DNA of 46,911 bases. It comes from a virus. This document shows, piece after piece, positions 6,448 to 46,667 of this stretch. The stretch spans positions 1 to 46,911 of the IMG/VR virus record IMGVR_UViG_3300015374_000013. One strand, given 5' to 3'. Every line of letters begins with the position of its first letter. Positions within the stretch are counted from its first letter, which is position 1. The notes beneath the pieces were generated by a model. The model was not told the origin of the DNA. It made no database searches and was given only the letters and a program-made list of their open reading frames with translations. A program made the translations under genes and the position numbers.

Positions 6448-7437
6448 GTGGCTAGCACCACCCCCACCCACGTCGATTCCTCGATCCCGGAGATTTGGGC
6501 CAAGGATACGCTCCGCAAGGTGCGCGTCGATGGCTTCTGGGGTCGATTCGTCGGCGGCGAGGGTTCGGGCGCTCCGATCATTCAGAAGACGGAGCTTCTG
6601 AACAACCCTGGCGACCTGATGCACATTCAGGTCACCGATGTTCTCGCGGGTGCGGGCATCTCGGGCGACACGGCCGTCCTGGAAGGCAGCGAGGAGAACC
6701 TCGCGACCACGGAGATCAAGGCGTCTCCGCTCCAGTACCGGCACGGTGTCCGGATGTTCCGCCGCGCGGACAAGAAGTCGATGCTCGACCTTCGGGCCGA
6801 GGGTCGGATGCGTCTCGAAGAGTGGGCGAGGAACAAGATCGACTCGCTCCGCTTCTCGCAGTTCGCAGCGACGTCGCTCGCCGCTCCGCTGGGCGCTGAG
6901 GCGTACACCCCCAACATCTACGTCGTAGGTGGCGGGGCGCTGTCCATCGATTCGGTCGCCCTCACGGACGACCTGACGGTGGCCGCGTGTCAGCAGATCA
7001 AGCTGATCCTGCGGATGAACAACGCGAAGCCGCTCGACGTTGACGGTCAGCCGCACTACGTCTACGTCACCCACCCGTACACGACTTATCAGCTCAAGCA
7101 GGAGTCGCGTTACGAGTCGTGGGTGCGCGAGGCGCACGTTCGCGGAGAGAGCAACCCGTTCTTCAGGGGCGCTCTGGCCGTCATCGACGGACTCATCATC
7201 TACGAGCACCCGTCGGTGCCCATCGCGACGAACGCCACGTCCGTTCCGGTGTCCAAGGGCATCGCGTTCGGTGCGGAGGCCTTTGTGGAGGCTCTGGACG
7301 AGAACATCTCGTACCAGGAGAAGCTGTTCGACTACGACAACGAGTACGGCCTCGCTGTCCGCTTCGCCTTCCAGTCGCGCCGCGCTCTGGAGCTTTCCTC
7401 GCTCCAGGTGTACACCACGGCGGAGACGATCAGCTAA
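6448..7437 (+). CDS. Major capsid protein, N4 gp56-like
   Basis: The 329-aa protein forms the head shell. The N-terminus (SSIPEIWAKDTL), a segment DTAVLEGSEENLATTEIKAS, RHGVRMFRRADKK, a long helix with RMRLEEWARNKID, and the C-terminal VIDGLIIYEHPSVPI strand pattern match the N4-gp56 family of HK97-fold major capsid proteins as I know it; length is normal for that family. It starts at GTG 6448 after a perfect AAGGAGG and sits 26 nt after the scaffold gene, the usual order. A hairpin terminator follows it. Confidence 0.88.
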   Translation: MASTTPTHVDSSIPEIWAKDTLRKVRVDGFWGRFVGGEGSGAPIIQKTELLNNPGDLMHIQVTDVLAGAGISGDTAVLEGSEENLATTEIKASPLQYRHGVRMFRRADKKSMLDLRAEGRMRLEEWARNKIDSLRFSQFAATSLAAPLGAEAYTPNIYVVGGGALSIDSVALTDDLTVAACQQIKLILRMNNAKPLDVDGQPHYVYVTHPYTTYQLKQESRYESWVREAHVRGESNPFFRGALAVIDGLIIYEHPSVPIATNATSVPVSKGIAFGAEAFVEALDENISYQEKLFDYDNEYGLAVRFAFQSRRALELSSLQVYTTAETIS

Positions 7438-21425: not shown

Positions 21426-21477
21426 GCTTCGACCGCTCGTCTGGGTTGTGACTCGGCTGTTTCGGGATTCGGCTCAC
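21337..21477 (-). CDS. Tiny single-pass membrane protein
   Basis: 46 aa from GTG 21477, which overlaps the tail fibre stop codon (TAGTG). A polar N-terminus (SRIPKQPSHNPDERSKPN) is followed by a strong membrane helix (VAAGLISGVLLTICLLVLLLEAL) to the C-terminus. It is convergent with, and overlaps, the end of the dNMP kinase gene by about 89 nt. Translational coupling to the fibre gene supports it. A lysis or membrane role is possible. Confidence 0.5.
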   Translation of the reverse strand: MSRIPKQPSHNPDERSKPNSWVAAGLISGVLLTICLLVLLLEALAR

Positions 21478-23390
21478 TAGATCACCCTGATCGGCGTTAC
21501 CTTGAGCTTGCGCCAGCGCGTGTGTGGCGTTCCCGTGTCGGTTGCACACTGGTACTGAAGCTTCAGCGTGGCCGCTGCCGTCACTCCGCGAATGATCTCG
21601 CTGAGTGAAATCGTCGCCGTGTGGCCCGCCAGCACGTACTCACCGCCCGGTGACGGCCCCGCTCCGTTGACTCCGCTGAACGTGCCCGACGTTGATGCGA
21701 GCCCTGCCAGAATGTTTCGCGCGGTTGTTGACTGCGTGGCGATGTACTGGTTGCACTCGGCGATGATTTCGTAGTCGCCCCCTCTCGGTAGCGTGACCGA
21801 TGGCCCCACCGTTGTTGCATCTCTCCACGTGGCATCGTCGGTGTAAGTCTCGTCCGTTGCGACGACTGCCGAGAGCGAGGCTCCACCGATATACTTCCAC
21901 TTGTACGTCGTCTCGCTGTTGTCGTACACGAACAGCCAGTAGAACCCTGACCCCTGGTAGATCCAAAGATCCCCCGTGGTTGGCGATGCTGGCGGCGATG
22001 TGCCGATGCTCCACAAGAACTTGTTTCCTTTGATGCTCCCGGCGAGATCGCCGTTGAGAACCGCGCCGCTCAGGTTCAGCTTTCCGTACGCGATTGCTGC
22101 TGTTCCCGAAATGTCTGTGTCCGCAATCGTTCCCGTTGCGATGTCGGACGAGAGAATGCTGTTCGCGAGGTTTAGCTTGCTGTACGAGATGGCCGCGCCG
22201 CTGTTGATGTCCGCGTCCACGATCACGCCCGCCGCAATCGCTGGCGCTGCGGCTGTGCCCGCGAGGTCGCCCGCAAGCTGGATCTTCCCTTTCGTGGTTG
22301 CGTCTGCGTCCGGCGTCGATCCTGCTGGCCCCATAATGTTGGTGCGCAGCGTGTACGTGCTGCTGCCGGTCTTCTCGTAGACATCACCGTTTCCGGTGTT
22401 CAGATACCAGTCACCGATGATCCCGAGCGCACCCGACGGCGCCCCCGCGCCCGAGCGCCACACGCCTCCCGGCGCTCCCGCGCTGCCCGTCGAGCCGGTC
22501 GGCCCGGTGAGATTGTCCCTCAGCGTGTAGGTGCTGCTGCCTGTCTTCTCGTAGACGTCTCCGTTGGCGTCGTTGAGATACCAGTCGCCCACGATTCCGA
22601 GTGCACCCGACGGTGCGCCAGTCCCACTCCTCCAGATCGATCCTGGGGCACCGGCGCTCCCGGTACTTCCCGTCGATCCGGTCGGCCCTGTGAGGTTGTC
22701 GCGCAGGGTGTAGGTGCTGGCGCCCGTCTTCTCGTAAATGTCCCCGTTGGCGTCATTCAAGTACCAATCCCCGATGACTCCCAACGCTCCGGACGGCGCC
22801 CCGGTGCCGCTGCGCCATACCGAACCCGCCGCACCGGCAGGCCCGGTCGATCCTGCTGGCCCTGTCGAACCCGTCGAGCCGGTCGGCCCAGTGAGATTGT
22901 CCCTCAGCGTGTAGGTGCTGGCGCCCGTCTTTTCGTAGATGTCCCCGTTGGCATCGTTGAGATACCAGTCGCCGACGATACCCAACGCACCCGAGGGCGC
23001 TCCCGTCCCAGACCGCCACACTGATCCTGGCGCTCCGTTACTGCCGCTTGGGCCGGTCGGCCCCGTTGCACCCGTCGCCCCCGCGCTACCAGCCGCCCCC
23101 GTTGCTCCCGTTGGCCCTGTGAGGTTGTCTCTCAGAACCCACGTGGTTGCGTCCGTCTTCTCGTAGACGTCGCCGTTGGCATCATTAAGATACCAGTCGG
23201 TCGGATCTCCTAGTCCGGAGGACGGTGCCCCCGTGCCCGAGTGCCAAACCGACCCGCCGCCGCCGACGCCTCCCGCGATCTCGCCCTCGATGTCAGCGAT
23301 GTCGCCTTGGATCTCTGTGATGGACGAGGAGTGCTGCCCGTAGAGCAGCGCTAGAGAGCCTGGTAGTTTATCGAGGTTCTCGATAGCCAC
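21477..23390 (-). CDS. Collagen-like tail fibre protein with tandem repeat modules
   Basis: 637 aa. About 60 N-terminal residues form a helical region (ITEIQGDIADIEGEIAGG). Then five modules of about 55-60 residues follow, each with WHSG/WRSGTGAPS, DWYLND, GD(I/V)YEKTG, YTLRDNLTGPTG and a variable collagen-like Gly-X-Y stretch. After the repeats come a fibre region with AAISYSKLNLANS-type repeats (about 395-460), a DLWIYQGSGFYWLFVY segment, and a beta-rich C-terminal head. This is a typical phage adhesin. It is on the opposite strand from the other virion genes. GTG start at 23390. Confidence 0.8.
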   Translation of the reverse strand: MAIENLDKLPGSLALLYGQHSSSITEIQGDIADIEGEIAGGVGGGGSVWHSGTGAPSSGLGDPTDWYLNDANGDVYEKTDATTWVLRDNLTGPTGATGAAGSAGATGATGPTGPSGSNGAPGSVWRSGTGAPSGALGIVGDWYLNDANGDIYEKTGASTYTLRDNLTGPTGSTGSTGPAGSTGPAGAAGSVWRSGTGAPSGALGVIGDWYLNDANGDIYEKTGASTYTLRDNLTGPTGSTGSTGSAGAPGSIWRSGTGAPSGALGIVGDWYLNDANGDVYEKTGSSTYTLRDNLTGPTGSTGSAGAPGGVWRSGAGAPSGALGIIGDWYLNTGNGDVYEKTGSSTYTLRTNIMGPAGSTPDADATTKGKIQLAGDLAGTAAAPAIAAGVIVDADINSGAAISYSKLNLANSILSSDIATGTIADTDISGTAAIAYGKLNLSGAVLNGDLAGSIKGNKFLWSIGTSPPASPTTGDLWIYQGSGFYWLFVYDNSETTYKWKYIGGASLSAVVATDETYTDDATWRDATTVGPSVTLPRGGDYEIIAECNQYIATQSTTARNILAGLASTSGTFSGVNGAGPSPGGEYVLAGHTATISLSEIIRGVTAAATLKLQYQCATDTGTPHTRWRKLKVTPIRVI

Positions 23391-26737: not shown

Positions 26738-27299
26738 GCTTGCGCCTTGGCTTGACCTTTGCGATCTCGCGGATGAATGTGACCGCGACCTTTGCGGCCT
26801 CCATTTCCACGATCTCGTCGGCATCGACGCTCAGCCCGAGGCAGAATCCCTTGCAGAACGAGACGGCCTGCCTTTCCAGCGCCTCTGACTCGTCCGGATG
26901 GATCGGGTCGTCGGTGCTGTCGTTGTGAATGTCGATCTGCTCACGTGCCGCCGCAAGATGCGCCGGGAACGTCGGCAGGCCTGCATCGTGGTAGCGCTCG
27001 ATGTGCCTGTCGCAGGCGAGCAGAAGCCCGTCCGCCATTTCCGTTCCGGTGCGCATCGTCTCGCCGTTGATGATCGACCAAATGCGACGTGGCACGCTGC
27101 CCGCCTCGATGCCGGGGATGATCTGTGGGAGGCGCCGGGAGATGCGTTCGATGCCGCCCTCCCGGTGCTGCTCCACTGTGCCGTCGGCGTGCTCGTGAAC
27201 TACGTCCTCGCCCATTTCCTCTACGAGCGGGGCGAGGATCTCTGCGAACATCGCGGTTGGCACGTAGTACGCCGGGTTTCCTCTGTGATGTGAGGTCAC
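26721..27299 (-). CDS. Putative helix-turn-helix phage protein
   Basis: 192 aa. At about residues 66-100, ERISRRLPQIIPGIEAGSVPRRIWSIINGETMRTGTEMADGLLLACD resembles a Cro/CI-type HTH followed by its positioning helix, as seen in small phage regulators. The rest is helical. It sits at the end of the methyltransferase-helicase gene and may be a regulator, though the match is not strong. Confidence 0.45.
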   Translation of the reverse strand: MTSHHRGNPAYYVPTAMFAEILAPLVEEMGEDVVHEHADGTVEQHREGGIERISRRLPQIIPGIEAGSVPRRIWSIINGETMRTGTEMADGLLLACDRHIERYHDAGLPTFPAHLAAAREQIDIHNDSTDDPIHPDESEALERQAVSFCKGFCLGLSVDADEIVEMEAAKVAVTFIREIAKVKPRRKLVKAA

Positions 27300-30200
27300 A
27301 TTCCCTCCTCTCCGAACAGCCCAAGCTGTCCAGCTTCGTCGGCCAGGACTTCCTTCTCCTCAAGCTGAGCGTTGGCAAGCTCACGCATCCGCGCGAGGAA
27401 GGCGAGGGAGTCTTCGCCCTCCTTCGGCTTTAGGTCTTCCGGGTCGATCTCGACCGTCTCGGCGGCCGGATCCGGATTGTCCTCCGTGGCCTCGAAGCCA
27501 ACTTCGTCTTCCCACGTGATTTCCGCAGGAAGTTCGTCCACGGGGGTCTGAACCTCCAAGTTGCAAATGCCACTTAGAGGGGAGTCGGCGGTTGCACCCG
27601 AGGGTAGCACGATGTTGTACGCGCAGGCACGGGCGGGCGAGGCTGCCGGGTCTTCCGGCTCCGGAGGCGCCGATTCCTCCGTAGCTGACGCCGCTGCCGA
27701 AGGAGAGGGAGGCTCCTCCGGGGTAGGCTCGACCGGCGCCTCGCCCTGCTTGTCGTCCTCTTCGGTCGGGAGACTCATTGTCTCTTCGACCTTGACGTTG
27801 AGATCCTTCGGGATCTCGAAGTCAGCGAGGACAGGAACGCGCTTCCAGGATTCCTCAACGTCAGTCTCATCGACCTCTTCGCCGGTGATCGGGATGCCCT
27901 TGTCGATCAACTCCTTGATGATCGCGGCCTCGTCCACCGACTCCTCTTTCTTCTCGATGAGCCTTCCGTCGAGTGCAAGCTCAGCGGCCTGCCCCTTCAG
28001 CGAGAGGTTCTCGTACTTCTTCGCCGTCAGCGTCCCCTTGGGGATCACGATGTACACGTCCACGTCCTTCTCCGACGTGAGCCTGTGAACTCGGGCGATG
28101 AACTGGTCAAGCGACTCGAAGTCCCACGGTAGACCGTGGAGAACGACCGCCGATCCGGCGTCGAGGTTGTGTCCGAGGCGAATCGCCTGGACTCCGGTGC
28201 AAAGCACCTGAACCTCGTTCGTCTGGAAGGCGTAGACGGTCTTCGCCCGCTTGTCTGGGTTCTGCGTCTGGTTGTTGCCGTCGAGGACGTGGAGAGCCTT
28301 GACGTCGCGCTCGCAAAGCTGGTCGGCCAGGAAGCGTGACGTGGCAACGAGGTTGCTGCCGACGAGCACCTTCCGGCCCTGCTTGGCGAGTGCCATACAA
28401 AGCTCCAAGACCTTGAGGTTGGCAGGCGTCCAGTTGCTTACGGAGATCCCCGTCCATTCGTGGTCGGGATCGGCCTCCGGGATCGTCGCAGCGTAGTCGA
28501 GCTTCTGCTGCATCCCGAGCATCGGGGCCATAATCTCGTGCATTCCGGCCTTGACAACCTTGGAGTCCGGGTACTTGTCCTCGAAAAACAAGTGGAACGA
28601 CTGAAGCCACTTCTGGCTGATGCGCTGTTGCTGGATCCCGAGCGGGACGGTGATGGGGTGGAACGTGCGAGGAACGATCTTCTCGCCCGTCTCCTCCTTG
28701 CGCCGTCGGATGGTGCTGCTCGACAGCATCCGCCAGAGCCGCGATAGGTTCGTGACCTCCGGGAGAACCTTGCGGTTCTGCTTCCGGCCCCGTCCGTCGT
28801 GCTTCCACTCGATGACGGCGAAGTCGTCCTCGAACTGGCTCTTGTCGTTGTAGCCGTACGGGAACAGCCGGGAGTTGTTGCCGAGGCACCACCAGAGCGG
28901 CCAGAACGCCTGCGGCACGTAGTTCTTGATCGGTGTGCCGGTCATCGAGAGCTTGAACCGAGCGTTGATGCCACGGATGACCTCGCTCCGGGTGGAGTAG
29001 TCGCCCTGGATCATCGTCGCCTCGTCCACGATGGCAACGCCGTGTTTGAAGGCCGTCGAGAGCTTGCTGCCCATCGGCTTGACGCGGTGCTTGTAGTGGC
29101 TGTAGCCACACTGGCCCCCGCTCGTCTTCTCGGCGCGGCAGAACTTGCCGTTCCACCCGCTGCGCCGGTCGGACTTGCACTCCGGGCAAAGCTCCTTCGA
29201 CGTGATGTCTTTCGTGACCTCCTGCCACTGTTCCGGCACGTACCGGGTGTGGCCGACGTAGGCCTCGATCTGATCCTCCTCGATGCCGAGCGCCTTGGCC
29301 TGCGACTCGTCAACGACGTGGACGTAGCGGCCGGTGCCTGCGATCTTCTTGAAGTCGGTCTTCTGCTCGACCACGACCTCGGGCAGCATCTCGCTCTTGG
29401 ACGTGCCGACGATGCTCAGCGCCTCGTAGTAGGTGATGAAGCGCCCGCTGCCGCCCATCTTCAGCTTCTTGGCGATGGCGTGGGCCTCGCCGTGCGTCTT
29501 GATGAGTTCGAGTTCGAGTCCGAGGAAGCGCTCAGCCTCGCGCTGCCACTGAGGGATGAGATCCTTGGGCACGATGAACAGGGCTGCGTTCTGCGCTCCG
29601 AGCTTGATGCAGCACTCCGCGTACGTGATTCCGCCGAGCGTCTTTCCGAGTCCCTGCTCCCAGGCGAGGAGTCCGGCACCCTTGACGAGCATCCGTGCCA
29701 TATCCTCGATCTGGAACTTGCGGAAGCCCTTGAACTTCTTGGCCTCCGGGAACTTGGCCTCGTACGCCTTCGAGTGAACGAGCATCTCCTTCTCGACCTC
29801 GCGGACGATCTTGCGCATCCGCTCCGTCTCCTCTGGGTACTTCGTTCCGACGTCACCGGGATCCGGCAAGTCGAAGTGGTCGATGAGGTACTGGATGTGC
29901 TCCGAGTCGCCAGAGGAGTCCGTGAACGACCAGTGGCCGATGGTGACCTTCATCACCTTCGCTGCCGTCTCGAACGTGCGCTCTTCCCACTCGCCTGCGT
30001 TCTTGCCCGAGCGGATCTGGACGGCGCGAGACTCCTGCGTGCGGATGGTCTGCGTCTGCGAGCGAATGTCGTATCGCTCTCCTTCCAGGAACCCGCGCTC
30101 CTCGTCGGTTTTGATGCACTCGATGGTGTCGATGTCCGAGAGGTAGCCGAGGCGCTGCTGCGGCTTGATCGGGTAGAGCGGGCAGATGATCCGCTTGAAC

Positions 30201-31327
30201 TCCATCAGCGCTTCCTCGACCGCATCGAACGCGCGAGGATCGATGGTCAGGATGTCGCTCTTGGCGAGGCCAAGCAGGACGTTCCACTCGCGCTCGTTGT
30301 TCGCGAAGTAGTTGACTGAGTGGTTGTTCATCCGGTTGACGTCGTGCAAGCGGTGCGTCTTCTGCAACGCCGCCGCCGCGAAACTGGATGGCATCACCTG
30401 AAGCACCTTGCCGCCGACAAGCTGGACGTCGAACTCGCGCTTCTTGATGCGGCCCTCGACGCGGCGCTCGTACTCCTCCTGGACTGCCTTCCAAGCGGTT
30501 TGCCGCTTGTGCGACTCGTAGTCGCGCTGCGCGACGCGCTCGTACGGCTTGAGCGCAAGCTTGCGGTGGTCTGTGACCCAGGATGCGAGGAGGTCGAGCA
30601 TATCGCGCGGGCACTCCCGCTTGACGTAGCCCGAGCCGTCCTCGGCCTTCCAGTCGCCGCGCATCTCCGGGTTGATCCCGAAGGCGATCACGCAGGGGAG
30701 TGTGGTGCCCTCGAAGAGATCGTCGCACTCCACGACGGCGTAGATGCCACGCGCCATCGGCTCGCCGATGATCTCCTTGTAGAAGCGGTCGCGGCCCGCG
30801 ATGAAGGCCAACTGGCCGTCGTATGCGAGGATCTGCATACAGTAGAAGAACGCGAGCTTGGTCGAGTTGACGGGCTGGCCGTCCTTGTAGGTCGGCTCCT
30901 CCCAGGACAGTCCGAAGGGCGGATTGGCGACGATGGCGCCCCAGTCGTCCACCACGCGCCTGAGCAGCGGGTAGACGTGCTGGATGTCACCCCGGATCGC
31001 CTTGTAACTGCCCTCCGAGTTCTTGATCTGATCCTCGTCAATCTCGACGCCCCACGAATAGCCGGGGTCGAACTCCCTCAACAGCGAGCCATCGCCCGCC
31101 GTCGGATCGAGGACATTGACGTAGCGGCCCACGACGTCGGCGACGAGCTTCGCGGCCTGCGGCGGGGTGTAGAACTGCTGAAGCCCCTTGGTGCCGTTTC
31201 CAAACTGGTTCTTCTCAAGGACGGACTTGCTGCTCTGCAAGGCCTCCTGAGTGAGGGCGCCACCTTCGAGCTTGCCGCCCTTCTGATTCTGATTCGCCTC
31301 CCTAACTGCGTGGGCCAGATTGAACAC
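27296..31327 (-). CDS. N6-adenine methyltransferase-SNF2 helicase fusion, putative anti-restriction protein
   Basis: 1343 aa. An N-terminal methyltransferase domain has DPTAGDG (74-80, SAM binding) and NPPF (135-138, catalytic), plus SWGVEIDEDQ. A middle domain (about 250-530) is of unclear fold. An SNF2-type ATPase follows: WEQGLGKT (about 557), VDEAT (about 766), SMTGTPIKN, and the C-terminal RecA lobe VLCTGVQAIRLGHNLDAG and QFIARVHRLTS (about 1077). A Cys cluster (CPEC, FCRAEKTSGGQCG, about 712-742) interrupts the ATPase half and may bind zinc. The last 230 residues are acidic and disordered. Fusions of this kind (P1 DarB type) protect phage DNA from restriction or modify it. It starts at GTG 31327 after AAAGGAGG. 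No nuclease domain is seen. Confidence 0.8.
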   Translation of the reverse strand: MFNLAHAVREANQNQKGGKLEGGALTQEALQSSKSVLEKNQFGNGTKGLQQFYTPPQAAKLVADVVGRYVNVLDPTAGDGSLLREFDPGYSWGVEIDEDQIKNSEGSYKAIRGDIQHVYPLLRRVVDDWGAIVANPPFGLSWEEPTYKDGQPVNSTKLAFFYCMQILAYDGQLAFIAGRDRFYKEIIGEPMARGIYAVVECDDLFEGTTLPCVIAFGINPEMRGDWKAEDGSGYVKRECPRDMLDLLASWVTDHRKLALKPYERVAQRDYESHKRQTAWKAVQEEYERRVEGRIKKREFDVQLVGGKVLQVMPSSFAAAALQKTHRLHDVNRMNNHSVNYFANNEREWNVLLGLAKSDILTIDPRAFDAVEEALMEFKRIICPLYPIKPQQRLGYLSDIDTIECIKTDEERGFLEGERYDIRSQTQTIRTQESRAVQIRSGKNAGEWEERTFETAAKVMKVTIGHWSFTDSSGDSEHIQYLIDHFDLPDPGDVGTKYPEETERMRKIVREVEKEMLVHSKAYEAKFPEAKKFKGFRKFQIEDMARMLVKGAGLLAWEQGLGKTLGGITYAECCIKLGAQNAALFIVPKDLIPQWQREAERFLGLELELIKTHGEAHAIAKKLKMGGSGRFITYYEALSIVGTSKSEMLPEVVVEQKTDFKKIAGTGRYVHVVDESQAKALGIEEDQIEAYVGHTRYVPEQWQEVTKDITSKELCPECKSDRRSGWNGKFCRAEKTSGGQCGYSHYKHRVKPMGSKLSTAFKHGVAIVDEATMIQGDYSTRSEVIRGINARFKLSMTGTPIKNYVPQAFWPLWWCLGNNSRLFPYGYNDKSQFEDDFAVIEWKHDGRGRKQNRKVLPEVTNLSRLWRMLSSSTIRRRKEETGEKIVPRTFHPITVPLGIQQQRISQKWLQSFHLFFEDKYPDSKVVKAGMHEIMAPMLGMQQKLDYAATIPEADPDHEWTGISVSNWTPANLKVLELCMALAKQGRKVLVGSNLVATSRFLADQLCERDVKALHVLDGNNQTQNPDKRAKTVYAFQTNEVQVLCTGVQAIRLGHNLDAGSAVVLHGLPWDFESLDQFIARVHRLTSEKDVDVYIVIPKGTLTAKKYENLSLKGQAAELALDGRLIEKKEESVDEAAIIKELIDKGIPITGEEVDETDVEESWKRVPVLADFEIPKDLNVKVEETMSLPTEEDDKQGEAPVEPTPEEPPSPSAAASATEESAPPEPEDPAASPARACAYNIVLPSGATADSPLSGICNLEVQTPVDELPAEITWEDEVGFEATEDNPDPAAETVEIDPEDLKPKEGEDSLAFLARMRELANAQLEEKEVLADEAGQLGLFGEEGM

Positions 31328-41956: not shown

Positions 41957-42269
41957 CGATTTCCCACTTTCCGGACGGGTCGGCCTTGGCGAGCCGCCAC
42001 ATCACTTTGTTGGCGTTCTTCCTTGCGAGGTTGCCGAGAACCTTGTCCTTCGGCTTGATCTCCTGAAGGATCCGGACGTCGTAGGACTGAGCCATCAGCT
42101 TCGCGCTGTAGCCCATCTTCTCGGCGACGGCCTTGAGCGACGGCGCCGCGATGACGAAATCGACGCGCACCGACCAGGGAATGTCTGCGCCATCCTCGAA
42201 CAGATGTGCGACCTCCCTGCGGTTCTTCCGGCCTTCCCAGAGGTAGACCGTGAGTTCTGAAGCTTCCAC
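41949..42269 (-). CDS. Hypothetical protein, HTH-like
   Basis: 106 aa. APSLKAVAEKMGYSAKLMAQSYDV resembles a helix-turn-helix with an aromatic end, but I cannot place it. GAAAGGAA precedes ATG 42269. A -10-like TAGGCT lies upstream on the minus strand. Confidence 0.45.
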   Translation of the reverse strand: MEASELTVYLWEGRKNRREVAHLFEDGADIPWSVRVDFVIAAPSLKAVAEKMGYSAKLMAQSYDVRILQEIKPKDKVLGNLARKNANKVMWRLAKADPSGKWEIDG

Positions 42270-42330
42270 GATTTCCTTTCGTTGTGATCGTGTGTGCGTA
42301 AGCCTAGCCTACGGATCGGTTGGCAGAGAT

Positions 42331-42368
42331 CCCCCCTCACCGAGCACTACCTCGTTCGATGAGGGGGG
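42331..42368 (-). repeat. 9-bp perfect inverted repeat at edge of non-coding region
   Basis: CCCCCCTCA (42331-42339) pairs with TGAGGGGGG (42360-42368), with an inner CGAG/CTCG. No T-run on either strand. It lies upstream of the 42269 gene's promoter region. Confidence 0.45.
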
Positions 42369-42395
42369 CGCGATCATCTAGTGACCGTCGAACCA

Positions 42396-42410
42396 GGAAT
42401 GCAGCATTCC
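42396..42410 (-). repeat. Short palindrome, possible operator
   Basis: GGAATGC-A-GCATTCC, a 7-bp palindrome with one central base. It also encloses a 9-residue reading frame (MLHSWFDGH) after AGAGGAGG on the minus strand; this peptide may be chance. Confidence 0.3.
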
Positions 42411-43057
42411 GCCTCCTCTCTTGAGTCGAACGATTCGTTGTCCGGGGTTTAAACTCCGCCGAGTGCAAGCCTTAGTCTCTCAAACCCTTGCGGAGTTTCG
42501 TGTCCCTTCCGGGACACGGATTTTGGGGTGTTCTGATTCAGAACCAGTGAAAGGGCACAACGACCCCTTTGCAGGAGTCGTTTAGCGATCCAGAGGATCG
42601 CGGGAAGTCTTCAGAGGCCTGAGCCTCAACGTGCCCTGGTCGCGCTTTACCACTTGACTTCCCCGACAGGAAGACAGACGGTGGCGTTACTGGTCGGGGT
42701 CGTGTGCTCGTAGAGCCGGACGACCTCGGAACGCCCCCGCCTGCATTCCTCGCGGACGGAATACTTCAGGGAGCTACAACTGGTCGGGCAAGAGGCTGCG
42801 GGAGCGGGGCCGGGAGGTGCTACCTCCTAAGCCGGTCGCGAGCCGGGCTGCCGGGAAACCCACTCCCGTAGCCTCTCACTACGACACTCGGGCTAGTCGC
42901 TGACCTTGCGGCTCGATCACTAGCGGGATCACATCCCAGGCCTTGTGCCCCCTGGCTCCCGGCCCCCTCGGGTTGTCTCTCGGGGAAGCTCCGGGCTATG
43001 CGATGACACCACTCTAACGAACGCGCCGGACGAAACCCTGCCAGCCGTGATCGACGC

Positions 43058-43063
43058 TATTCT
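43058..43063 (+). promoter_or_regulatory. Promoter -10 box (TATTCT) of the packaging operon
   Basis: TATTCT 24 nt before the 43088 ATG, with GAAGGA in the leader. No clear -35 box. It would transcribe the terminase-portal block. Confidence 0.45.
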
Positions 43064-43087
43064 ACGGATCACGATGAAGGAAACGCT

Positions 43088-43738
43088 ATGCCCGTAATCA
43101 CCGTCAAGACCGTCTCCCGCTGCAAGCTCTGTTCTTCCCCGCACCGTGCGGAGATCGATGCCGAGCTTGAGATCCGGAGCAACCTCAACGGGAAGCCGGA
43201 CGAGAACGGCGTGGTTCACAACATCGAGTACGTCCTCAAGAAGTTCGAGCAGGACTTCGGCGTTGAGAACCCTTCGGCCCGCAACGTTCAGAACCATTGG
43301 GGCAACGCGAGCCGTCACAGCTACCCGGCGTCTCGCGAGGAGGCGATAGCCGCCAGCTTGGAGGATGACAAGCTCACCACGGAGCAGCTTGACATCGTGA
43401 AGAGGATCCTCCCGGACTGGCCCGCGCAGACGCCCACGCCCGAGCAGATCCTTGAGTTGCAGCGGGCGCTGTTTCCCTTCGCCGTGATCCAGAACATCAA
43501 GAGCGGGAAGCCCCTCGGGATCACCTGGGATCAGGTGGATCGCGGGATCAACACGGCCACCCGCAGGAACTCGGAAGAGCAGGCTGCTTCGCTGATCGGC
43601 TCGCTTGCCGGTGCCATCGAGGAGTCGGCTCGCACGGCTGGCAAGGCCGTCGATGCCGTCCTCAAGGGCGACGAGCAGGAGGTCATCGAGGCAGAGGTTG
43701 TCGAACACGAACCCAAGGAGATCACCGATGGTTCATAA
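43088..43738 (+). CDS. Putative terminase small subunit or DNA-binding protein
   Basis: 216 aa. N-terminal CKLCSSPHRAEIDAEL has a CxxC zinc-finger style start; VQNHWGNASRH and then a long helical region (SLEDDKLTTEQLDIVKRILPD, RRNSEEQAASLIGSLAGAIEES) follow, and the end is acidic (EVVEHEPKEITD). Position at the head of the packaging operon suggests a small terminase subunit that recognises phage DNA. I see no clear HTH, so this is moderate. ATG after GAAGGA. Confidence 0.45.
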   Translation: MPVITVKTVSRCKLCSSPHRAEIDAELEIRSNLNGKPDENGVVHNIEYVLKKFEQDFGVENPSARNVQNHWGNASRHSYPASREEAIAASLEDDKLTTEQLDIVKRILPDWPAQTPTPEQILELQRALFPFAVIQNIKSGKPLGITWDQVDRGINTATRRNSEEQAASLIGSLAGAIEESARTAGKAVDAVLKGDEQEVIEAEVVEHEPKEITDGS

Positions 43739-44271: not shown

Positions 44272-44558
44272 GCGCTGAGAAGTTCGCTCGTCGGTCGGTC
44301 GTGGAGGTCGTCGTCTGCCGCGTGGCCTCGGAGATGCTGGCCGGGGTCGGCGTGACGATCTCCTCGATTGGCAAGACCATCGAGTGCGCCGCGCAGGGGA
44401 TCTTCCTGCTTGAGTGCGATGCCGCTCGCCGCTACAAGGCCGCGACCGGCTACGACCTCGGCGGTGCGGCTGGCTACCCGAAGCGCTACTCCGACCTTGC
44501 GGAGGAGATCGCGGTCGAGCCGGGTTCCGAGGATGACGACCACTTCTCGATGGAGTGA
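44268..44558 (+). CDS. Hypothetical small protein in packaging operon
   Basis: 96 aa from GTG 44268 (GTGA overlap). A helical protein with SVVEVVVCRVASEMLAGVGVTISSIGKTIECAAQGIFLLECDA; acidic end (EEIAVEPGSEDDDHF). Not recognised; coupled to the terminase ATPase gene. Confidence 0.4.
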   Translation: MSAEKFARRSVVEVVVCRVASEMLAGVGVTISSIGKTIECAAQGIFLLECDAARRYKAATGYDLGGAAGYPKRYSDLAEEIAVEPGSEDDDHFSME

Positions 44559-45388
44559 GCGTCTATGTCTCAACCGGCAAGGCTAGTGAGTCTGACCGGG
44601 TTCTGGATGCGCTGGCCCGTGGGCGGGAAGACCACCAGTTCTTCTCCCGCACATTTCTCAACCGTACCCTCCACGACGGGCAGCTTGAGTATGTCACCAA
44701 CGCGAATGCCACGGTCAACTGCCTCGCGACCGCTAACCGTTATGGCAAGACGACTCTTCTGAGCCACCGGCACTTCCACTCCTGCATCTACAAGATCGGC
44801 GGCGAGTCGAAGTACATCAGCGAGGATGGCGTGATCGACGCCAAGAAGTTCACGGAGATCCGCTACAACACGGTTCACACCGCAGGCGGGTGGGAGACGG
44901 CGGCGCTCGTCTGGGACGAGGCTCACAAGATTATGGGCGAGTCCCCTCGGCTCGAAGCGTTTGTCAAGGACAAGCCGCGCAGCAAGCCCCCGCACATCGA
45001 GTTCATCCACGGCGCCCGCTGGAAGTTCAGGACTCTCGGGCACAACGCCGAGGGCGTGGACGGCAACAGCTTCTACCTCATCAGCATCGATGAGGCGGGC
45101 TGGATCGAGAACCTGGAAGAGATGATGCAGAACGTCCTCCGGGTTCGCGTTGCCGACGTCCAGGGGATGATTGACATTGTGGGGACGTTCAAGCCGGGTG
45201 TGTCCAAGGACTTCTACAAGTTCTGCGTCCGCGCCAGCGCGTATACCGGAAAGGGGTTGGGCTTTGACCATCGCGATCAGGCTGACGAGGCGACGGAAGT
45301 GCAATCGCTGGACGCTTCTATTCGCCGTTACCTTGCTGATTACGGCATCGATCTTGACGAGTTTGCGGAGGCTATCGGTGGGCGCTAA
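44555..45388 (+). CDS. terL (ATPase part): Terminase large subunit, ATPase domain (split gene)
   Basis: 277 aa from GTG 44555, overlapping the previous stop. Walker A-like ATANRYGKTT at about residue 60, Walker B FYLISIDEAGW with the catalytic Glu at about 182, and a coupling segment DIVGTFKPG at about 212. This half hydrolyses ATP to drive DNA into the capsid. The nuclease half is encoded by the gene at 45765, with two small genes between, so the protein is naturally in two chains. Confidence 0.8.
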   Translation: MSVYVSTGKASESDRVLDALARGREDHQFFSRTFLNRTLHDGQLEYVTNANATVNCLATANRYGKTTLLSHRHFHSCIYKIGGESKYISEDGVIDAKKFTEIRYNTVHTAGGWETAALVWDEAHKIMGESPRLEAFVKDKPRSKPPHIEFIHGARWKFRTLGHNAEGVDGNSFYLISIDEAGWIENLEEMMQNVLRVRVADVQGMIDIVGTFKPGVSKDFYKFCVRASAYTGKGLGFDHRDQADEATEVQSLDASIRRYLADYGIDLDEFAEAIGGR

Positions 45389-45653: not shown

Positions 45654-45772
45654 GTATTCTCGAAATGATCGTCCTGGTCGCCGCCGTCGTCGGCGCGATC
45701 TTCTTGGCCTACGTCTTCGTTGACCCCGACTACGGCCCCGAGCCTGACGTTCCCTGGGAGGACGATGAGTAG
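45650..45772 (+). CDS. Tiny membrane protein between terminase parts
   Basis: 40 aa from GTG 45650 (GTGA overlap with previous stop). Hydrophobic helix (LEMIVLVAAVVGAIFLAYVFV) and acidic tail (PEPDVPWEDDE). Its stop overlaps the nuclease start. Packaging by this chain is unclear; may be cell-lysis related. Confidence 0.5.
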   Translation: MSILEMIVLVAAVVGAIFLAYVFVDPDYGPEPDVPWEDDE

Positions 45773-46667
45773 GCCCGAATACTACGTCCAGACCGGCTCG
45801 ATGTTCGAGAACCCCCACGGGGTTCCTCACGCCGAGATCGTCCGGATGGTTCTGGACAACCCGGCCGAGGTCACGGCTCAGACCGTCTTCGGCAAGTACG
45901 TGGAGTCTTCGGGCCTCGTCTTCACCGGCGAGCTTGTTCAGATGCTCATTGACCGCAGCCTCCCTCGTGTTCTGGGGAACTCCTACCTCGATGCGGAGGC
46001 GGCGCGGCAGGCTCAGATTTGGGCTGAGAGCCACGACGGTTGGTGGGGCAACCGCTACCACACCGGCATCGACTTCGCGCGGCAGACGGACTTCACTGTT
46101 ATCTGCACGATTGACGTCGTGCAGAGTCCCGCGCGGCTCGTCTACTTCCGCCGACTCAACAGAGTCCCGTGGGACAGCATCTATGCAGAGGTTGGTAAGG
46201 CGCGAGAGTTGTTCGGCCCCAACATCCTCTGCGACTCGACCGGCCCCGGTGGCGACGTCGTAATGGATGCGTTGGAATCCTCGCTGTATTGTCCGACGCA
46301 TCATCGCGTGGTCAGGCAGGGCTACCGCTGCGTAAAGGATGACGGCACTCCCCTGGGTTGTGCGCCGCGAGATTACCTAAGCCTTAGCTGCGCCGAGGGC
46401 TTCGCTTTTTCGGCGCAAAGGAAGAAGGAACTCATCGACCACCTTCGCCTCGTCCTGTCCTCTGGGTATGATGCGTCACAACCTGATGCGTCATTTGGGA
46501 ATCTTCGCGTACCACCCATCGTCCAGCTTGAGGAAGAGCTTTCGTTCTACGCTTGGGAAGATCGCAAGCTACAGACGGATTGCGTCTTCTCGCTGGCCCT
46601 CGCCTGTTGGTCTGGACTCGAACAAGAGGTTGCGCCCGTGTCGCTCGGTAGCCCGTTCGGACGGTAG
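45765..46667 (+). CDS. terL (nuclease part): Terminase large subunit, nuclease domain (split gene)
   Basis: 300 aa from ATG 45765. RNase H-like nuclease residues: GIDFARQTDFTVI (first Asp), LCDSTGPGGDVVMD (second and third Asp), and TDCVFSLALACW (last Asp). It cuts the phage DNA during packaging. The ATPase domain is in a separate gene upstream. N-terminal about 100 residues link to the ATPase part and have no domain of their own. Confidence 0.8.
   Translation: MSRPEYYVQTGSMFENPHGVPHAEIVRMVLDNPAEVTAQTVFGKYVESSGLVFTGELVQMLIDRSLPRVLGNSYLDAEAARQAQIWAESHDGWWGNRYHTGIDFARQTDFTVICTIDVVQSPARLVYFRRLNRVPWDSIYAEVGKARELFGPNILCDSTGPGGDVVMDALESSLYCPTHHRVVRQGYRCVKDDGTPLGCAPRDYLSLSCAEGFAFSAQRKKELIDHLRLVLSSGYDASQPDASFGNLRVPPIVQLEEELSFYAWEDRKLQTDCVFSLALACWSGLEQEVAPVSLGSPFGR

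Follow-up and report, generated by a model that had tools for sequence, protein, structure and literature searches.

A gene-free gap in a phage genome probably encodes a large structured RNA around a diverged EGFOA-like core

The window analyzed here (the entire 46,911-nucleotide stretch of the IMG/VR virus record IMGVR_UViG_3300015374_000013) contains a gene-free gap of 818 bases (42270–43087) between a minus-strand gene that starts at 42269 and a plus-strand gene that starts at 43088. On its left the gap is bordered by an operon of small genes on the minus strand, and on its right by a plus-strand operon with the terminase genes. The terminase large subunit is apparently split into an ATPase gene, which weakly matches PHROG 9, and a separate nuclease-like gene (44555–45388 and 45720–46667, plus strand); the same split is found in the contigs L002, L016 and L017. 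Elsewhere the minus strand of the window encodes a 1343-aa protein with N6-methylase, SNF2 and helicase domains (27296–31327), resembling the DarB-sort phage anti-restriction proteins, and a collagen-repeat protein with a DUF5907 repeat (21477–23390).

A sequence-only reading had described the gap as rich in hairpins, and a count against shuffled sequences bears this out. The minus strand of 42430–42990 contains 11 non-overlapping hairpins (stem of at least 6 bp, loop of 3–8, G-U pairs allowed), while dinucleotide shuffles have 5.4 ± 1.7 (none of 300 reaches 11); seven are found on the plus strand by identical criteria. The folding z-score of the whole region is -5.9 for the minus and -3.8 for the plus strand, and in sliding windows the signal of the gap exceeds that of most flanking genes and is again stronger on the minus strand. 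The minus strand has two GNRA-capped hairpins of 8–10 bp, whereas the plus strand lacks any of this length: the GGAA tetraloop that had been noticed is located in the hairpin at 42499–42518, and a second loop, GCAA, caps the 10-bp hairpin P5 at 42559–42582. The long stem enclosing another hairpin is also present (42791–42808 / 42859–42876). The supposed closed multi-branch junction survives only in part: the stem GGGCAC/GTGCCC (42553–42558 / 42630–42635) does enclose three hairpins, namely 42614–42627, P4 at 42585–42601 and P5, but it crosses the better-supported helix 42602–42609 / 42656–42663 and can therefore be no more than one side of a pseudoknot.

When the first packaging gene was used as query in a protein search, one contig (L002/L004, hereafter L002) turned up with an equivalent gap. 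The alignment of this gap with that of the window exposed a conserved stretch, which was used as a pattern and led to L003, a 46-kb phage contig; across the core region, 89 bases of it align at 70%. The L003 core sits in a structured gap between leftward genes, and no TBLASTX match links the window to the L003 phage in the 22.3 kb of the latter that were compared. The L003 phage also has a queuine tRNA-ribosyltransferase-like gene (L073, 2155–2892, minus strand), possibly serving DNA base modification. The comparison rests on three sequences, two of which (the window and L002) come from related phages. In all three the core is on the minus strand, and in all three the folding z-score is more negative on that strand; L002 and L003 do not stand out from shuffles in their hairpin counts, though they do in their overall folds, with a modest z-score for L002. 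A BLAST search of the region against phage and plasmid records yielded no real match.

The core is built around the helix P2, whose 5' strand GGGAAGUC (42656–42663, minus strand) pairs with the 3' strand GACUUCCC (42602–42609). In L002 the corresponding pairing is CCGCAGC with GCUGCGG, and in L003 GGCAGAC with GUCUGUC, so that a helix of 7–8 bp is kept in three of three loci. Both sides have changed in six of the seven compared pairs, which none of 500 shuffles equaled, these counts leaning towards structure since alignment A3 was put together manually out of flanking pieces; the compensating changes that the earlier reading had proposed to look for in homologous phages are present. Sliding the partner strand destroys the signal, and an independent sequence-shuffle test of P2 gave 0.0001–0.0005 per sequence. 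In every locus P2 lies one base from an invariant AGUG and on its other side directly follows UGAA (42610–42613 in the window). Enclosed by P2 are the core GUGGUAAAGCGCGACCAGGGCAC (42631–42653), a short GUG/CAC stem with a 17-nt loop that reads GUGRUAAnGCrCGACCnrGGCAC across the three loci, and the hairpin P3 (GAGGC-UCAG-GCCUC, 42614–42627), whose sequence and length vary among the homologs. A crossing helix P1 may form between GUGCCCU at 42552–42558 and 42631–42637, joining AGGG of the loop to a downstream CCCU; it pairs in the window and L003, and this pseudoknot is tentative because the partner bases in L002 have a longer competing helix.

The possibility that the hairpins are a mere by-product of GC-rich non-coding DNA draws on the GC content of 61–67% in the window and L002 and on the modest L002 z-score, but the covariation of P2 already contradicts it, as does the invariant core shared across unrelated phages, and we regard it as extremely improbable. 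About 50 other loci match the core pattern exactly; most of them fall within long reading frames, and in none is UGAA directly followed by a P2 of at least 6 pairs. Two prophage-like elements of Bordetella (L010, 3700–3950, and L012 from Bordetella hinzii, 6550–6800) share a conserved gap with TGCCTTGGTCGTGCNTTATCACTGA, which is very close to the core pattern (exact match of 16–18 bases) and could be a chance likeness or a distant relative; as these elements fail the P2/UGAA test and L010 yields no EGFOA match, we treat it as chance.

Comparison with Rfam connects the core to a catalogued family. No family passes the gathering threshold in the window; at a lowered threshold EGFOA RNA (RF02955) recurs at the core in each of the three loci, always on the minus strand. 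Searching whole records at E<=10 gives one EGFOA match each in the window, L002 and L003 (E = 0.0019, 0.010 and 0.058, respectively), whose covariance scores of 15.3, 18.8 and 18.7 bits are all below the cut-off of 37.7. These three matches are not fully independent, as the core itself led to L003 and L002 is a relative, and three of 14 control genomes also give an EGFOA match that stays under the cut-off when this loose limit is applied. The loop agrees with the EGFOA consensus GUGGUAAAGCUAGACCUGGGCAC at 20 of 23 bases in the window, 21 of 23 in L003 and 17 of 23 in L002, in each case at the best place in the record; the next-best place in the window reaches 16 of 23. The enclosing helix of EGFOA, closed after UaaA, corresponds to P2 and UGAA, present and covarying in all three loci, and both P2 and its arrangement with UGAA had been derived before the Rfam model was seen. 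Upstream of P2 are an enlarged first hairpin, long and imperfect (42676–42743), which has a counterpart at the equivalent place in L002, and an EGFOA-type 5' box UCCC...CCGUCC (42751–42776) that cmscan aligns to EGFOA positions 1–27; the CCGUCC box is aligned in the window and L002 and is not recognized in L003. Matches to microRNA families (e.g. mir-4657) reflect the long hairpin only and were dismissed as chance.

Outside the core, structure extends in both directions, and we propose a non-coding RNA from 43004 to 42430 on the minus strand, covering the region with the z-score given above and homologous to structured regions in L002 and L003. The 5' domain occupies about 230 nt before the core. 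Its helix A (42919–42924 / 42892–42897) keeps six pairs in the window and L002, three of them changed on both sides, and its helix B (42860–42879 / 42788–42807) keeps 17 pairs, eight changed on both sides. The 3' domain, about 130–200 nt after the core, carries the GNRA-capped hairpins; at the place equivalent to P5, L002 has a 14-bp hairpin (2346–2379) with GAAA available. The outer domains are seen to be shared between the window and L002. A further 9-bp stem, AAACUCCGC / GCGGAGUUU, is predicted at 42451–42498. The 3' end is uncertain and possibly lies as far out as 42331; a 13-bp GC-rich hairpin at 42331–42368, which has no T run on either strand, may be a terminator.

A promoter-like motif, TTCGTCCG-N-TAGAGT (43011–43034, minus strand), has its single match in the 46.9-kb window at this place, from which an RNA start near 43004 would be expected. 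The form TTCGTCCGGCGC-N-TANNNT is common to the window and L002, at equivalent places upstream of the RNA, and also precedes a gene start in L017; in L003 a near-perfect sigma-70 promoter, TTGACA-17-TAGAAT, immediately precedes the RNA on the minus strand. A plus-strand RNA was rejected on promoter and fold. Two related phages, those of the window (42296–42313) and L017 (about 2640), also have similar near-palindromes, CGTAAGCCTAGCCTACGG / TGTAGGCTTAGCCTACGG, immediately ahead of gene starts; these may represent a phage promoter or operator.

At each of the three loci the structure is followed, at a distance of at most a few hundred bases, by a gene on the same strand, as would be expected if it were a cis-acting leader of the minus-strand genes, such as a riboswitch-like or attenuator element, and not an independent RNA. 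However, the gene immediately downstream is different at each locus (a 106-aa gene in the window, a 63-aa gene in L002 and RNase HI in L003), which speaks against the cis-control of one gene; promoter-like sequence separates the RNA from the next gene in the window and L002; and EGFOA is listed by Rfam as an sRNA gene and not as a cis-regulator. We therefore consider such a leader unlikely, and the promoter together with the differing downstream genes is what one would expect of a separate RNA gene.

The position next to the packaging genes, with divergent operons on either side, which holds for the window and L002, would also suit a structure that acts as DNA, i.e. a packaging site, a replication origin or a divergent promoter region by the terminase operon. 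In L003, though, the surroundings are leftward genes, and some 8 kb separate the element from the terminase small-subunit gene, so that the proximity to packaging genes emphasized in the earlier reading holds for two loci and is not a shared context. Given in addition that folding favors one strand in all three loci, that what is conserved is a loop of RNA-like character which matches an RNA family, and that the L003 sigma-70 promoter points into the element, a DNA element is very unlikely.

The initial proposal of a large structured non-coding RNA is upheld by the compensating changes in three loci, the conserved single-stranded core, the promoter and the finding of no conserved reading frame through the region. 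A structured RNA around an EGFOA-like core is well supported and, in our judgment, very probable. The fuller reading that we prefer, a stand-alone minus-strand phage RNA of about 570 nt around this diverged core, transcribed from its own promoter and probably acting in trans, is reasonably likely as a whole. Transcription would start from the predicted promoter near 43020, run away from the packaging genes and, as we infer, yield one RNA. The CCGUCC box and the first hairpin would precede P2, which would enclose the short GUG/CAC stem with its 17-nt loop and a variable hairpin; loop bases may pair downstream as a pseudoknot, and the outer GNRA-capped helices would form a stabilizing scaffold. 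Displayed on P2 and the GUG/CAC stem, the invariant loop would bind a putative host component in trans, a mode that the anatomy of the RNA makes conceivable at close to even chances.

Two phages that share no detectable protein in the part compared both carry the RNA, suggesting a selectable stand-alone function. The RNA looks accessory in the phages related to the window, since both the core and an EGFOA match are absent from L016 and L017, terminase-related phages with terminase nucleases 53–54% identical, whose records may be fragments. At E<=10 EGFOA was likewise absent from the L010 record. The EGFOA consensus was not found in phage records, nor did 398 genomes from the phylum of L012 contain EGFOA, which shows little, as control genomes are equally without a match; a literature search found no paper on EGFOA. 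A bolder reading, in which the EGFOA motif is the conserved heart of a large ornate phage RNA family, with the full-length form seen at this locus and the core binding a common bacterial target, is doubtful at present; if true, it would define a phage RNA class of the order of GOLLD and ROOL with a widely shared core. In any case, a nearly unstudied catalogue entry is tied to concrete phage genomes and gains a strand, a predicted promoter, a covarying structure and a possible full-length form, which opens EGFOA to phage deletion and structure work.

Few large structured phage RNAs are known, and GOLLD and ROOL, which are still without a settled function, are the nearest in kind, although no test here supports membership. 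They often lie near tRNA islands, while the window has no tRNA genes. The GOLLD model matches neither the window at its gathering score nor the RNA region at E<=10, the ROOL model gives no covariance match, and none of the large ornate families matches even at E<=10. By covariance search the RNA is none of GOLLD, ROOL, OLE and raiA, in agreement with the earlier reading, which saw no clear match to known large phage RNAs by eye. Both GOLLD and ROOL, whose functions are unknown, occur in phages and assemble into cages (PMC12286853). The RNA described here is, like GOLLD, large, structured, non-coding and phage-encoded and, like the pseudoknot-containing ROOL, multi-helix (PMC12286853), but its core differs from both. 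An assembly of the GOLLD/ROOL type, in which an ornate phage RNA forms homo-oligomeric cages, would be consistent with the similar size, the phage location and a multi-helix fold with a possible pseudoknot; considering the missing model matches and tRNA genes, and a conserved part that is a compact core instead of a long conserved scaffold, we judge it rather improbable. Two other likenesses were rejected: the same order of crossing helices as in HDV is accompanied by a long conserved joining loop and no matching active-site sequence, and the loop cannot form the D stem of a tRNA D-arm.

The closest known relative of the core is thus EGFOA, a stand-alone sRNA gene in Rfam, of unknown function. 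Both have, in the same order, a CCGUCC box (here aligned in the window and L002), a hairpin, a helix enclosing the GUG-GUAAAGC..GACC.GGG-CAC loop, UaaA and the closing helix strand. The loop here contains GCRCGACC, whereas EGFOA has GCUAGACC; the first hairpin and P3 are much larger than those of EGFOA, and a possible extra pseudoknot goes beyond it. EGFOA is compact (about 108 positions), whereas the core is 175 nt long in the window and 182 nt long in L002 and forms part of a proposed RNA of more than 500 nt, with the 5' and 3' domains outside the EGFOA model. As the scores of 15–19 bits are well under the cut-off, the sequence comparison points to a diverged, enlarged relative of EGFOA that is not to be filed as a full member. 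The earlier suggestion of a new class was accordingly too strong, and the gap most likely encodes an uncommon phage RNA that is real, though not of an entirely new kind.
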